DNA of 64,000 nucleotides, taken from NCBI RefSeq assembly GCF_002214545.1, contig NZ_CP015105.1:372001-436000 (forward strand), given 5' to 3'. The stretch comes from Thermococcus thioreducens. GTDB lineage: Archaea; Methanobacteriota_B; Thermococci; Thermococcales; Thermococcaceae. The notes under the pieces are model-generated. The model was not told the origin of the DNA, searched no databases, and saw only the letters and a list, made by a program, of their open reading frames with translations. The translations under genes were made by a program, and so were the position numbers. The first letter of the stretch is position 1. The number at the start of each line of letters is the position of its first letter. Positions 39,438 to 42,874 of this stretch are shown here, piece after piece.

Positions 39438-39739
39438 GTTACCACCGATAAAACTACCGTCGAAGGGTTAAAACCCTACCTTCAGAAAAACCCCGAGGAA
39501 AACTGAAAAATTTTCGGAAAATCACGGGCGTTTTTTCTCGTTCCTGCCACAGTTTGGGATTTGGATTCTGGGGGGCTTTTAGCTGTTCTTAGATTGTCAT
39601 GTTTTGGCGGTTGTAATCTGGACTCCCTGTGGAGTAGTGATCTAATTTTAATTGCCATTGCCTTGTTAATATTAACAATAGTAAATTTTTTAAGGTTTGG
39701 ATTTATTATCCATGTAGACAGCTCTAAGGAGGTGTTCGC
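39438..39739. other. A+T-rich intergenic region
   Basis: About 300 bases between iorA and the toxin-like gene. The left part is the divergent iorA leader. The right part holds the toxin gene promoter. A 68-codon frame at 39561-39767 crosses the next start and has no binding site, so I do not call it. No RNA structure seen. Confidence 0.5.
39685..39693 (+). promoter_or_regulatory. TATA box of the toxin-like gene
   Basis: ATTTTTTAA-type box about 50 bases before the TTG start at 39740. The AAGGAGGTG binding site at 39726-39734 is close to consensus. Confidence 0.5.
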
Positions 39740-40708
39740 TTGGATTGGAAGAGGTTCCTTGCTCTAACCCTCGTGTTGCTCTTCCTTGGAATGGCCCTCA
39801 GTAGTGCCAGCGCCACTGCGAGCTTTGTTAATGCAACGGTGAACAGTACGGCAACGCTACCCGGAGATCTCAGTCTGGGGAAGCCTGGAGATGAGGTCCA
39901 GCCCCAGGTCGCTCCGGTTTTGATTTTTGTTGGAATGATTCTGCTGGATTTGCTACTAAGCTGGGCGCTGGAGAGGTACGTTTCCCCTGAGGCGGCAATG
40001 GTGTATGATGCCGTCTCGCTTCTAATTCCAGACCCTGGGGACGGCCTCAAGCTCGGCATTAAAGTCCTGGCAAAGCACGGGGATGAAATCACAAAGTACT
40101 CCATCGTAATCGTCAAAAAGGACTGGTGGCGCACCAAAGTCGTCAAAACCATCACTGACGTCAGTGCCAGCAGTGCCAGGTGGGTGAAAAGTGCTCTTGG
40201 CGAAAAGTACATCAAGGAAATCGCGGAAAAATACGTCGTAAAGAAAGGCAAGAACTTCGATGATGTTGTAAGAATTCTTCAGAGACTTAGGAACCAGGGA
40301 ATAAGCGAACGTGCCCTCAAAGAACTCGTCGAGGAAGGAGCAGACCTTAACAAGATACTCAGGGACATTTCAAGAGTCAGGGATAAGACTATAAATGTGG
40401 GAAGGTATAAAGTCGTAATACAGAAAGGCAATGAAAACAAGGGCATAATTCACGCTTATCTCAGACATGTTATTGGCTGGAGGAGCAGAAAAACATACAC
40501 GTCAATGTTTCCATCAACCTTCACTGCGGGGGACATTGCAAGGATCGCCGAGGACGCGGCAAAGGCTCATCCAGAGGAATTTTCAAAAGTTGGATATGAT
40601 GGTAAAGTAAGGATAAAGTATTACGTTAAAGGCATAGGAGAAGTTTTAGTAGTATACTACAAATCGGGAGACGGGTTTTATTTCCTGACAATGTTTCCAG
40701 TCAGGTAA
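39740..40708 (+). CDS. Secreted or membrane-anchored protein with a C-terminal RNase-like toxin domain (candidate polymorphic toxin)
   Basis: 322 residues from a TTG. Residues 1-27 are a signal peptide (FLALTLVLLFLGMALSSASA); VAPVLIFVGMILLDLLLSW (about 58-76) is a second hydrophobic segment. A helical middle follows. The last 90 residues carry an IIHAYLRHVIGW motif (His238, Arg242, His243), TSMFPSTFTAGDIARIAEDAA (Ser255 to Pro258) and a terminal strand FYFLTMFPVR (Thr317). This order (HxxxRH, then S-x-F-P with a helix, then a final T-x-x-P strand) resembles RNase A-like/EndoU/BECR toxin tips of contact-dependent inhibition proteins. Nuclease activity is inferred by analogy only. Confidence 0.55.
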   Translation: MDWKRFLALTLVLLFLGMALSSASATASFVNATVNSTATLPGDLSLGKPGDEVQPQVAPVLIFVGMILLDLLLSWALERYVSPEAAMVYDAVSLLIPDPGDGLKLGIKVLAKHGDEITKYSIVIVKKDWWRTKVVKTITDVSASSARWVKSALGEKYIKEIAEKYVVKKGKNFDDVVRILQRLRNQGISERALKELVEEGADLNKILRDISRVRDKTINVGRYKVVIQKGNENKGIIHAYLRHVIGWRSRKTYTSMFPSTFTAGDIARIAEDAAKAHPEEFSKVGYDGKVRIKYYVKGIGEVLVVYYKSGDGFYFLTMFPVR

Positions 40709-40720
40709 ACCCCCACTACC

Positions 40721-40734
40721 TTTTAATTTTTTTG
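40721..40734 (+). terminator. T-rich terminator after the toxin-like gene
   Basis: TTTTAATTTTTTTG starts 12 bases after the stop. It separates the toxin-like gene from the next gene, which has its own promoter. Confidence 0.5.
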
Positions 40735-40738
40735 GGAT

Positions 40739-40748
40739 AAAAATATAC
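40739..40748 (+). promoter_or_regulatory. TATA box of the candidate immunity gene
   Basis: AAAAATATAC lies about 35 bases before ATG 40778, with GGAGGGG at 40764-40770 in between. The gene can therefore be expressed apart from the toxin-like gene. Confidence 0.5.
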
Positions 40749-40777
40749 ACAGAAATCCTGATTGGAGGGGGCAAATA

Positions 40778-41524
40778 ATGGCGTTTCGTGTGGTTCGTGA
40801 TGATGTGCCATTTAAGATTAATTTGAATGTTAATGATTATGTTCCGACAACATTAATAATTAACAATGAAGCCATTGGCGGATGTTATAAAATGGGTGAA
40901 TTCATAAAGGATACATGTGATCTTTCAGAGCTTGTAAGTGATCTAGTGAGGATTTCCGTATATTTTCTCAGGAAAATCTACGGAACCTCACAGAATAACG
41001 AGGAGCACTTAGAGCGTTTATATCAAATAGCTAATCCCGAGCCTACAAAGAGCTGGCTAGAGTCATGGCATGAGACAATTAGGGAGTTCAACATTAAGCT
41101 TACAGAAGATGTAATTGCCTACTATATTGCCTACCTTGGGTTCTATTACTCAAGCACGATTTTTATTCTTAGGGGGTCTGGTGAAAAGGTTGTTGATGTT
41201 TTCTTTAAGAGTTGGGGTACTGAAAACTGCCCGGAATGGGTCAGAAAGCGCAAGGAAGGTGAAATTGTCAGGGTTACTGTGAAGCTCAGGGATTTTGTTA
41301 CTGATGTGATTCAGCTTGCTGAGGAGTACTTAGAAATGCTGGAGGAGAGGAAGAAGTACCTGAACAGAAAAATACTCGCCAACACGAAACTCTCAGAAGA
41401 ACTATCTCCAGAGGAGGAGATAAAACACATCGAAGAACTTAAGAGAGGTACGAAGCTCGCATTATTCCTCTTAAAAGAACTTTTTGATAAAGTTTTCAAT
41501 CAAAGTCAATGTGATTCGTTATAG
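40778..41524 (+). CDS. Hypothetical protein, candidate immunity partner
   Basis: 248 residues, soluble, helical and acidic, with no signal peptide. The N-terminus is beta-rich (VVRDDVPFKINLNVNDYVPTTLII); the rest is helical with EDVIAYYIAYLGFYYSS and a Lys/Glu-rich coiled C-terminal region. No family recognised. Its place right after a secreted toxin-like protein, cytosolic location and own promoter are what an immunity protein would show. Codons are strongly A/T-ending, unlike core genes, which suggests recent transfer. Confidence 0.45.
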   Translation: MAFRVVRDDVPFKINLNVNDYVPTTLIINNEAIGGCYKMGEFIKDTCDLSELVSDLVRISVYFLRKIYGTSQNNEEHLERLYQIANPEPTKSWLESWHETIREFNIKLTEDVIAYYIAYLGFYYSSTIFILRGSGEKVVDVFFKSWGTENCPEWVRKRKEGEIVRVTVKLRDFVTDVIQLAEEYLEMLEERKKYLNRKILANTKLSEELSPEEEIKHIEELKRGTKLALFLLKELFDKVFNQSQCDSL

Positions 41525-41548
41525 TATTCCAGTAGGGGAGGAAAAACT

Positions 41549-41911
41549 CTGGGCCCACTCTATGAGGCTGAGGTTGTGAGTCACCTCAAGAGGAGTGGGT
41601 GGGGGATAAAGGAAGTCGAGAAGGAGGTTAGGGACGCATCGGGGAGAACCCTAACGGAGATTGACATAATCGCCGAAAAGAACGGGAGGACAGTTTACGT
41701 TGAGTGCAAGAGGAGCTTTGATGAAATAGACATCGGGCAGATAGCAAAGCAGGCCGGATATGCCAAGAACCACGGAATAAGGACAATAAAAATTTACTAC
41801 GCAAAGGGTCCATCATATCCATCCACTTACACCCTCCAGAAGCTCAGGGAGATCAGTTCAAAATACAACGTTGATATAAGCTTGGTTTATCTCGGGTCAA
41901 ACTTTAACTAA
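41549..41911 (+). CDS. PD-(D/E)XK nuclease-like protein, apparent CTG start
   Basis: About 120 residues. A restriction-endonuclease-like core is visible: YEAEVVSHLKRSGWGI, then TEIDIIAEKNGRTVYVECKRSF with the Asp-(x)n-Glu-x-Lys catalytic set, then DIGQIAKQAGYAKNHGI. Coding sequence continues upstream of the first GTG (41576) to a CTG at 41549 that stands 7 bases after GGGGAGG, so CTG appears to be the start. Otherwise the conserved first helix is lost. It could be a Holliday-junction-resolvase-like or restriction-type nuclease; a defence or element-encoded role is plausible. Confidence 0.6.
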   Translation: MGPLYEAEVVSHLKRSGWGIKEVEKEVRDASGRTLTEIDIIAEKNGRTVYVECKRSFDEIDIGQIAKQAGYAKNHGIRTIKIYYAKGPSYPSTYTLQKLREISSKYNVDISLVYLGSNFN

Positions 41912-41913
41912 GC

Positions 41914-41927
41914 TTTTTTATTTTTCT
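41914..41927 (+). terminator. T-rich terminator after the nuclease-like gene
   Basis: TTTTTTATTTTTCT begins 2 bases after the stop codon, a strong archaeal termination signal. Confidence 0.55.
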
Positions 41928-41954
41928 CCAAACTACAGCAATGAGGTGATGCTT

Positions 41955-42500
41955 GTGGGTGTTGATAATTACATTTACTTTGTGTTTGATGGAAAGCCAG
42001 AAGATGTTGAGGACTTCATTATGAGGGAGTTTGAAGTTGAGGTTCAGGATGAGGAGTTTGGTAATCCTTGGATGGATTACCTCAGGGAAAAAGGTCTTTT
42101 GGGGGAGGATTTTCAGTTAATTATCCCCGGCGAACTGCTCTTTGATCCACCGCTGAGGACTGATGAGGGGAAGACGATACTCAATGCAGACTTCAGGATT
42201 TACACTGCCAAGGGCTTTACGATCCTTGAACTCCACCCCAATCCAAGAAGCAGATGGTGGTCCGTCCTCAGTTCGGAAGTCATTAGGCTCCTAAAACAGT
42301 TTATGAAAGGGGGACCCTTGTTGATATGCGGCTACCGGGATGATACAGACCTGACAAAACTCGGCTTCAAGCACAACAATCGGCTCATGTTCATAAACTG
42401 GCTTCCCGAGGCAATTAAAACAGGAAAACTCGAAGTCCTCCCCTCAGCTCTCACAGCAGTAAAAAAAGAACTCTTAGATCTAAAGGACGGTCCTTTATGA
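41955..42500 (+). CDS. Hypothetical protein of the accessory island
   Basis: 181 residues from a GTG 5 bases after GAGGTGAT. An alpha/beta soluble protein: NYIYFVFDGKPEDVEDFIM, then ILNADFRIYTAKGFTILELHPNPRSRWW and KGGPLLICGYRDDTDLTKLGF. No signal peptide, no known motif. It looks like the small cytosolic immunity-type proteins that follow toxins, but this is context only. Confidence 0.45.
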   Translation: MGVDNYIYFVFDGKPEDVEDFIMREFEVEVQDEEFGNPWMDYLREKGLLGEDFQLIIPGELLFDPPLRTDEGKTILNADFRIYTAKGFTILELHPNPRSRWWSVLSSEVIRLLKQFMKGGPLLICGYRDDTDLTKLGFKHNNRLMFINWLPEAIKTGKLEVLPSALTAVKKELLDLKDGPL

Positions 42501-42530
42501 ACTGATTGAAAGGCCTGGGAGAGGGAGTAC

Positions 42531-42749
42531 GTGCTTGTCAAAACCATTGATAACTATAAACTGCTCGTTTCAATAGGGGAAATCGATTTGACTGATGAGG
42601 AGTGCTACCGTGACATTTTGGAAGACAAAGCCGAGTTCAGTTTGAAAATCGTTGGACTCACCTTCAAGCGCATCGGCCGGAAGGTGGAAGACAAAGTCCT
42701 CGTTAAGAGGACCGAAGAGTACTTTAAGGCCCAGGTGGTAAAACTGTGA
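42531..42749 (+). CDS. Small hypothetical protein
   Basis: 72 residues from a GTG behind GGGAGAGGGAG: TIDNYKLLVSIGEIDLTDEECYRDILEDK and RTEEYFKAQVVKL. It starts 30 bases after the previous stop, so it may be cotranscribed. It resembles the N-terminal strand of its neighbour (VDNYIYFV versus IDNYKLLV), but the similarity is short. Unknown function. Confidence 0.4.
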   Translation: MLVKTIDNYKLLVSIGEIDLTDEECYRDILEDKAEFSLKIVGLTFKRIGRKVEDKVLVKRTEEYFKAQVVKL

Positions 42750-42802
42750 GTGTTGGTTATCACTTTTTCTTTTGAAATCTTGCCCTTTAGGCAGATGGGG
42801 GG

Positions 42803-42874
42803 TCAGTCCATCACGATGGAAGCGAAGAGGAAGAGCTTGTATCCGTACCTCTCCATAAACAGACCCAAATCCAT
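42803..42874 (-). pseudogene. Truncated tandem copy of the adjacent small membrane protein gene
   Basis: From ATG 42874 behind AGGTGAAG it reads MDLGLFMERYGYKLFLF and stops after 23 codons. This matches the start of the next gene upstream on the same strand (MDFDLFMERYGYKILFG). Its binding site overlaps that gene's stop codon. It appears to be a duplicated and truncated paralogue. Confidence 0.65.

Follow-up and report, generated by a model that had tools for sequence, protein, structure and literature searches.

The 64,000-bp window analyzed here (G000:C1:372001-436000) comes from the single-contig, 2.07-Mb genome of Thermococcus thioreducens; coordinates given below without a locus handle refer to it. 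Positions 39740-42749 hold a series of open reading frames (ORFs) that a sequence-only reading of this DNA had proposed as a toxin-immunity island. We confirmed the products of 322, 248, 120 or 111, 184, and 72 aa and the unusual starts: gene 1 begins with TTG behind a AAGGAGGTG ribosome-binding sequence, and the third ORF gives 120 aa from CTG 41549 or 111 aa from GTG 41576. The low G+C content that had been noted was also found in a composition scan (42-48% in the island vs. ~54% around it). A TATA-like stretch is visible ahead of gene 2 and is a candidate promoter only; the terminators that had been placed between the genes were not supported by our scan for intrinsic terminators, though T-runs exist. 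The island interpretation is supported overall by the fold, variable-tip, and following-gene analyses reported below, and the region very probably represents a polymorphic toxin/immunity locus whose family is confined to Thermococcaceae. It lies far beyond chance because homologous, ordered loci recur in many Thermococcaceae genomes. We further regard it as highly likely that this locus has been caught after an exchange of the C-terminal toxin module (tip).

The exchange is seen best against the loci L065 (genome G071) and L066 (G048), in which the carrier is fused to a PD-(D/E)XK tip. When the old tip and the carrier were compared with these relatives as separate pieces, the L065 and L066 carriers were 73% and 71% identical to the gene 1 carrier, and ORF 41549-41911 was 86% and 82% identical to their fused tips. 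At the DNA level, 39777-40269 aligns with L065 4368-4863 at 80% identity, followed by no match until 41549, from which 1203 unbroken alignment columns extend along L065 5045-6232 at 80.6% identity. The left joint falls at 40269 in five blastn comparisons (L065, L066, L067, L068, and L073), and the right joint at 41549 (L065 and L073) or 41543 (L067 and L072). The CTG at 41549 coincides with the point at which fused tips read LGPLYEAE. Base composition shifts at the same places: the G+C content falls from 52% to 42% at the carrier/linker junction and is 42% in linker plus tip and 39% in the immunity gene, vs. 52% in the carrier and 48% in the old tip. The corresponding values at third codon positions are 37% and 42% vs. 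61% and 59%.

Judging from these alignments, the PD-(D/E)XK tip is the former tip of the gene 1 toxin, displaced downstream by tip exchange. The ORF concerned had been read as a PD-(D/E)XK nuclease-like gene. Its nuclease family holds, with all 14 family members matching UPF0102 and Mrr_cat (the window tip above the cut-off) and with DII and ECKR invariant in 14/14 tips; an independent nuclease gene is ruled out, because the ORF aligns with fused toxin tips from its first codon onward. Nor are there two more small cytosolic genes behind it, as had been supposed. The ORFs at 41946 and 42531 align to residues 1-179 (74%) and 195-263 (72%), respectively, of a single intact 268-aa protein of L065 and are therefore the two halves of one immunity gene with a broken frame.

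We propose that, in the ancestral locus, a PD-(D/E)XK tip was joined to the present carrier and the immunity gene of that tip came next. A cassette of ~1.27 kb (linker, EndoU/RNase A-like tip, and immunity gene) would have inserted at the carrier/tip boundary, moving the previous tip and immunity gene downstream. There the tip would have become an orphan that lacks a standard start codon, and its immunity gene would have broken. In the present locus, the carrier would be exported through Sec, use its second hydrophobic segment for anchoring or membrane entry, and possibly be processed near PGDEVQPQ. It may present or release the C-terminal RNase, which would kill related cells that lack the matching immunity protein, and the 248-aa product of gene 2 would neutralize the RNase inside the producer. 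Contact-dependent, diffusible, and vesicle delivery would fit the evidence alike. The broken orphan immunity gene, together with stop codons in several carriers at other loci, would also suit a decaying relic in which the recombined toxin is undelivered or inactive and only immunity functions are retained. Such decay is highly improbable here, as genes 1 and 2 are intact and have good ribosome-binding sequences and the new tip retains the conserved residues of its family.

Table 1. Features of the toxin/immunity locus, and related orphan tips in other loci.
Feature	Position	Strand	Basis
Whole insertion, relative to the empty iorA-upstream sites of relatives	39544..42811		Flank homology
Upstream promoter/leader DNA common to other toxin loci	39557..39739	+	79-84% DNA identity to L005 and L077, running into gene 1
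Gene 1, predicted secreted polymorphic toxin (322 aa, TTG start)	39740..40708	+	
Conserved carrier part of gene 1 (residues 1-177): signal peptide, PGDEVQPQ (39884-39907), second hydrophobic segment (39908-39964), and helical pre-toxin region	39740..40269	+	71-73% identical to G071 and G048 carriers
Helical linker, probably arrived with the new tip	40270..40390	+	Protein similarity to linkers of long EndoU-type carriers; G+C drop
Toxin tip, predicted EndoU/RNase A-like (BECR-type) RNase	40391..40705	+	Leave-one-out hidden Markov model (HMM), alignment, Foldseek
Gene 2, putative cognate immunity protein (248 aa, ATG start)	40778..41524	+	Leave-one-out HMM
Right-hand junction, where homology to the fused PD-(D/E)XK toxin restarts	41543..41551	+	blastn; 41549 is a CTG codon
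Orphan PD-(D/E)XK toxin tip, probable former tip (120 codons from CTG)	41549..41911	+	86%/82% identity to fused tips
Immunity gene for PD-(D/E)XK tip, N-terminal part (184 aa, frame broken)	41946..42500	+	74% identity to L065
Immunity gene for PD-(D/E)XK tip, C-terminal part (72 aa, other frame)	42531..42749	+	72% identity to L065
Orphan EndoU-type tips opening at TTFWPMGQK, after the presumed catalytic RH, with in-frame stops directly ahead; possible silent cassettes	L097:5328-10084, L007:9029-9370, L087:4969-5316, L095:10339-10674, L103:2907-3239		

The carrier agrees with the earlier description of a secreted protein with a second hydrophobic segment, as its hydropathy profile has segments at residues ~5-27 (signal peptide) and 55-77 (Kyte-Doolittle 2.3). 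The signal-peptide-like N-terminus is conserved across the 19 carriers aligned, and export is predicted. Mean identity among these carriers is 63% over the first 61 alignment columns vs. 35% over the remainder, and the near-invariant parts are the signal peptide and a P-G-D-E-V-Q-P-Q motif immediately ahead of the second hydrophobic segment; long EndoU-type carriers have a similar KGEIRPQF at this position. Three further loci of the same genome match gene 1 (over residues 1-214, 1-166, and only 171-259, respectively), and matches also occur in 33 of the 94 Thermococcaceae genomes, where the best alignments typically end near residue 214-227. With a carrier profile, 34 of the 115 genomes of the phylum were matched, every one in Thermococcaceae, the weakest by the signal peptide only. 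A contig search with one weak carrier pattern returned only four Thermococcaceae loci. No Pfam or NCBIfam model reaches its threshold for the family, and HetE-N and Ppl were rejected as identities of gene 1, with scores under the cut-offs and confined to the helical region. No description of the carrier family was found in the literature searched; a 2019 mBio article by Makarova et al., which reportedly treats archaeal polymorphic toxin systems, may list it.

Three tip classes were found on this short carrier. PD-(D/E)XK tips occur at 14 loci and BECR-like tips at ~11 loci (some fragmentary in both classes); the latter have H-I-x-R-H, a conserved T in the terminal strand, and weak PBECR1/PBECR2 and EndoU matches. 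The EndoU-type tip is present on a short carrier in the window locus only, among the carriers examined. To the question raised earlier, whether the tip varies while the N-terminus is conserved, the answer within Thermococcaceae is thus yes. Orphan tip/immunity modules lie near toxins in the window (41549-42749), L006, L086, L089, L092, L097, and others. The one in L006 (8052-8495), from the same genome as the window, is an orphan BECR-like tip that repeats the carrier's pre-toxin anchor KSVITITRDEVKAVEDLFSPKEYGKLLAQAYLNGWDAN, and this repeat would provide homology for recombination with the upstream toxin.

The new tip of gene 1 contains the motifs IIHAYLRH, TSMFPSTF, and TMFPVR as first read, and is preceded by a linker 38% identical at the protein level to that of a long EndoU-type carrier (L007) over residues 171-258. 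It groups with 18 tips of mostly long (~450-630 aa) secreted proteins, and it is recovered from 2096 ORFs at E = 8e-13 by an HMM that excludes the window sequence. R242-H243, T254, and P320 are among the invariant positions of the family alignment, the last strand of which reads [TS]-x-aromatic-P; H238, R242, H243, and T317-x-F319-P320 of the window tip agree with the conserved positions. An active-site-type His (in the invariant R242-H243) is combined with a late-strand S/T (T317, T or S in the family) that has an aromatic residue at +2, and catalysis is predicted.

The best of five AlphaFold models of the tip has a predicted local distance difference test score (pLDDT) of 84 and a predicted template modeling score of 0.80. 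Its top Foldseek matches in the PDB are toxins of contact-dependent inhibition (CDI) systems, namely, 7m5f_C of Serratia marcescens BWH57 (E = 1.3e-3, probability 1.00) and 5e3e, the CdiA-CT of Yersinia kristensenii (E = 0.03, probability 0.97); HigB2, the toxin of a toxin-antitoxin system, is also among the best matches. The Serratia toxin has a BECR fold (PMC8616854), and the Yersinia toxin is RNase A-like with the active site His175, Arg186, Thr276, and Tyr278 (PMC9086364). In BECR RNases, the fourth strand carries a conserved S/T (PMC3482391). The window tip has a conserved His and a Thr-x-aromatic in the last strand like these CdiA-CTs (His175, Thr276, and Tyr278 being the Yersinia equivalents) and, in its best model, may share their fold; no sequence match to them is detectable, and identity over the structural alignment is only ~13-16%. 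The suspected resemblance to RNase A-like/EndoU/BECR tips is seen again in this model, and the tip is best placed in an archaeal EndoU-like family, its predicted fold being nearest to bacterial CDI RNase toxins of the BECR and RNase A types. Because of the fold matches to CDI RNases and the conserved His and S/T positions, a metal-independent RNase is the best reading and a probable one.

A stand-alone secreted 181-aa protein adjoins hisS in L162 (1884-2429; G022:C1:375392-375739) and in ~13 other genomes. It shares HIWDRHVLGY...TTFYPLGQ...TAYP motifs with the tip, has no Pfam match, and is possibly a plain secreted relative. The tip fold could thus exist as a plain secreted enzyme, as would be expected if gene 1 were an extracellular nuclease with accessory genes that serves feeding or DNA/RNA turnover and not attack. 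We find this unlikely to a high degree, as a feeding enzyme has no need of a matched cytosolic partner, tip exchange, or orphan arrays, each of which occurs both in this locus and in relatives.

The partner in question is gene 2. It scores E = 5.7e-11 against an HMM of immunity proteins of EndoU-type tips from which gene 2 itself and its closest relative had been left out. Members of this family lie directly 3' of the tip in 20/20 other EndoU-type loci, so the expectation that relatives of the 248-aa protein follow such tips held throughout those examined; behind PD-(D/E)XK tips, the next gene belongs instead to another family, IM2, in 14/14 loci. By family-level homology, gene 2 is the putative cognate immunity protein of the window tip. 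Its model is alpha/beta and does not agree with the purely helical protein first described. A CRISPR Cas8a2/Csa4 identity (E = 0.04-0.06) was judged to be chance. The closest relative of gene 2, 51% identical in protein and 80% identical in DNA over 223 bp, comes from another genus (L101:5702-6463) and is an orphan that adjoins no toxin. Tandem sets of two to three IM2 immunity genes behind PD-(D/E)XK-tipped toxins were found in L067, L071, L072, and L073 and represent polyimmunity arrays.

Several observations weigh against a functional toxin/immunity pair of this kind. No secretion or injection apparatus was identified for the carrier family. The pairing of gene 2 with its tip holds at the family level only, because the window has the sole short carrier examined with an EndoU-type tip, and the gene 2 model has no PDB fold match. 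For the tip, the match to Pfam EndoU_bacteria (PF14436) is sub-threshold (18.9 vs. 25.3 bits, E = 0.002), and matches of any kind to this model occur in 1/19 family members only. PDB sequence searches with the tip, as a single sequence or a profile, gave chance matches only; the remaining tip models reach 59-63 pLDDT vs. 84 for the best; and the TM-scores of the Foldseek matches are near 0.5. Finally, a sequencing error could account for the frame break in the orphan immunity gene.

The island adjoins iorA on its upstream side. Of the 30 best iorA loci, 28 are toxin-free with closely spaced flanks; the other two are the window and G071, which has a sibling PD-(D/E)XK-tipped toxin at the same site. 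In G037 (L108), homology stops at window position 39543 and restarts at 42812, with ~190 bp between. These empty sites, the low G+C content, and the patchy distribution are also what would be seen if unrelated genes, not functionally paired, had gathered at a recombination hot spot. That explanation has very little probability, given that the carrier-tip-immunity order is kept with tip-specific partners and that genes 3-5 are co-linear over their full length with a single fused toxin/immunity locus of relatives (80.6%). In several species, toxin loci adjoin an MLCNQCSMSL gene (L005, L068, L073, L074, L080, L085, and L104), which marks an insertion hot spot and which we take from its motif to be an Hcp homolog; some other family loci adjoin a methyltransferase-like gene. 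These shared neighbors indicate that insertion sites recur. No match for the locus was found in plasmid, phage, and viral-contig searches. Anti-phage defense was ruled out, with no PADLOC model match except a weak PD-(D/E)XK one.

Polymorphic toxins, their archaeal examples, and displaced orphan tips are known kinds of element; on the alignments above, what the window adds is bacterial-type tip-swapping caught in an archaeon. CDI islands of E. coli contain CdiA-CT/CdiI pairs with displaced orphan modules (PMC4927057; PMC9086364). In bacteria, the reading frame of a displaced orphan tip begins at the tip boundary and lacks an initiation codon; protection is the presumed reason why orphan immunity genes are retained (PMC9086364; PMC4927057). 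Like these islands, the window has a swappable predicted nuclease tip, an adjacent putative immunity gene, and a displaced old pair downstream, and its orphan tip, which opens at the tip boundary, lacks a standard start codon. Unlike CDI, gene 1 is archaeal, has 322 aa vs. thousands, and lacks filamentous haemagglutinin repeats (no filamentous haemagglutinin-type CdiA domain was found in its Pfam scan, and no CdiB candidate among the adjacent ORFs); its junction is at LGPLYEAE, whereas that of CDI is at VENN.

Archaeal toxins described earlier are secreted multi-domain proteins that bear nuclease tips and come with immunity genes (Zhang et al., 2012, PMC3482391), and the window appears to share this organization; the text of that paper has no mention of "Thermococc-". 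The VARTIG modules of Thermococcales comprise a hypervariable secreted protein in an island with C-terminal shuffling (PMC8416519). Gene 1 likewise encodes a variable, predicted secreted protein of a Thermococcales island with C-terminal exchange, but VARTIG proteins have Ig domains and no recognizable nuclease tips, whereas gene 1 has a nuclease-like tip and no Ig-fold family in Pfam or NCBIfam scans. Archaeal polymorphic toxins were predicted and not experimentally characterized as of 2021 (PMC8416519). The present locus may preserve in its DNA a record of the way such toxins are diversified in archaea, and a lineage with genetic tools, intact toxin/immunity pairs, and empty sites would make toxicity, immunity, and exchange testable.

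Arrays of orphan tips and immunity genes lie downstream of EndoU-type carriers, and L097 has four truncated orphan tips. In most of the 15 short tip ORFs, homology begins at or after TTFWPMGQK, several have in-frame stops just upstream, and the LRH motif is in frame in only three (L086, L089, and L092). The stored tips look silent because opening after the presumed catalytic LRH would leave the catalytic half out. DNA identity between six clean-motif orphans and carriers is 0.26 upstream of the joint (chance level), 0.67 over the first 105 bp past it, and 0.55 further on. We tentatively raise the possibility, which we would not yet favor, that Thermococcaceae have a cassette system of silent stored EndoU-type tips activated by recombination inside the nuclease domain. 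If so, a stored tip would fuse to the constant catalytic half of the carrier, the specificity of the toxin would change, and the matching immunity gene would co-travel; a tip that is in use in one genome could be kept in store in another. The L089 orphan resembles the L093 and L070 carriers, the L092 orphan resembles L100, and the L097 orphan resembles L092.

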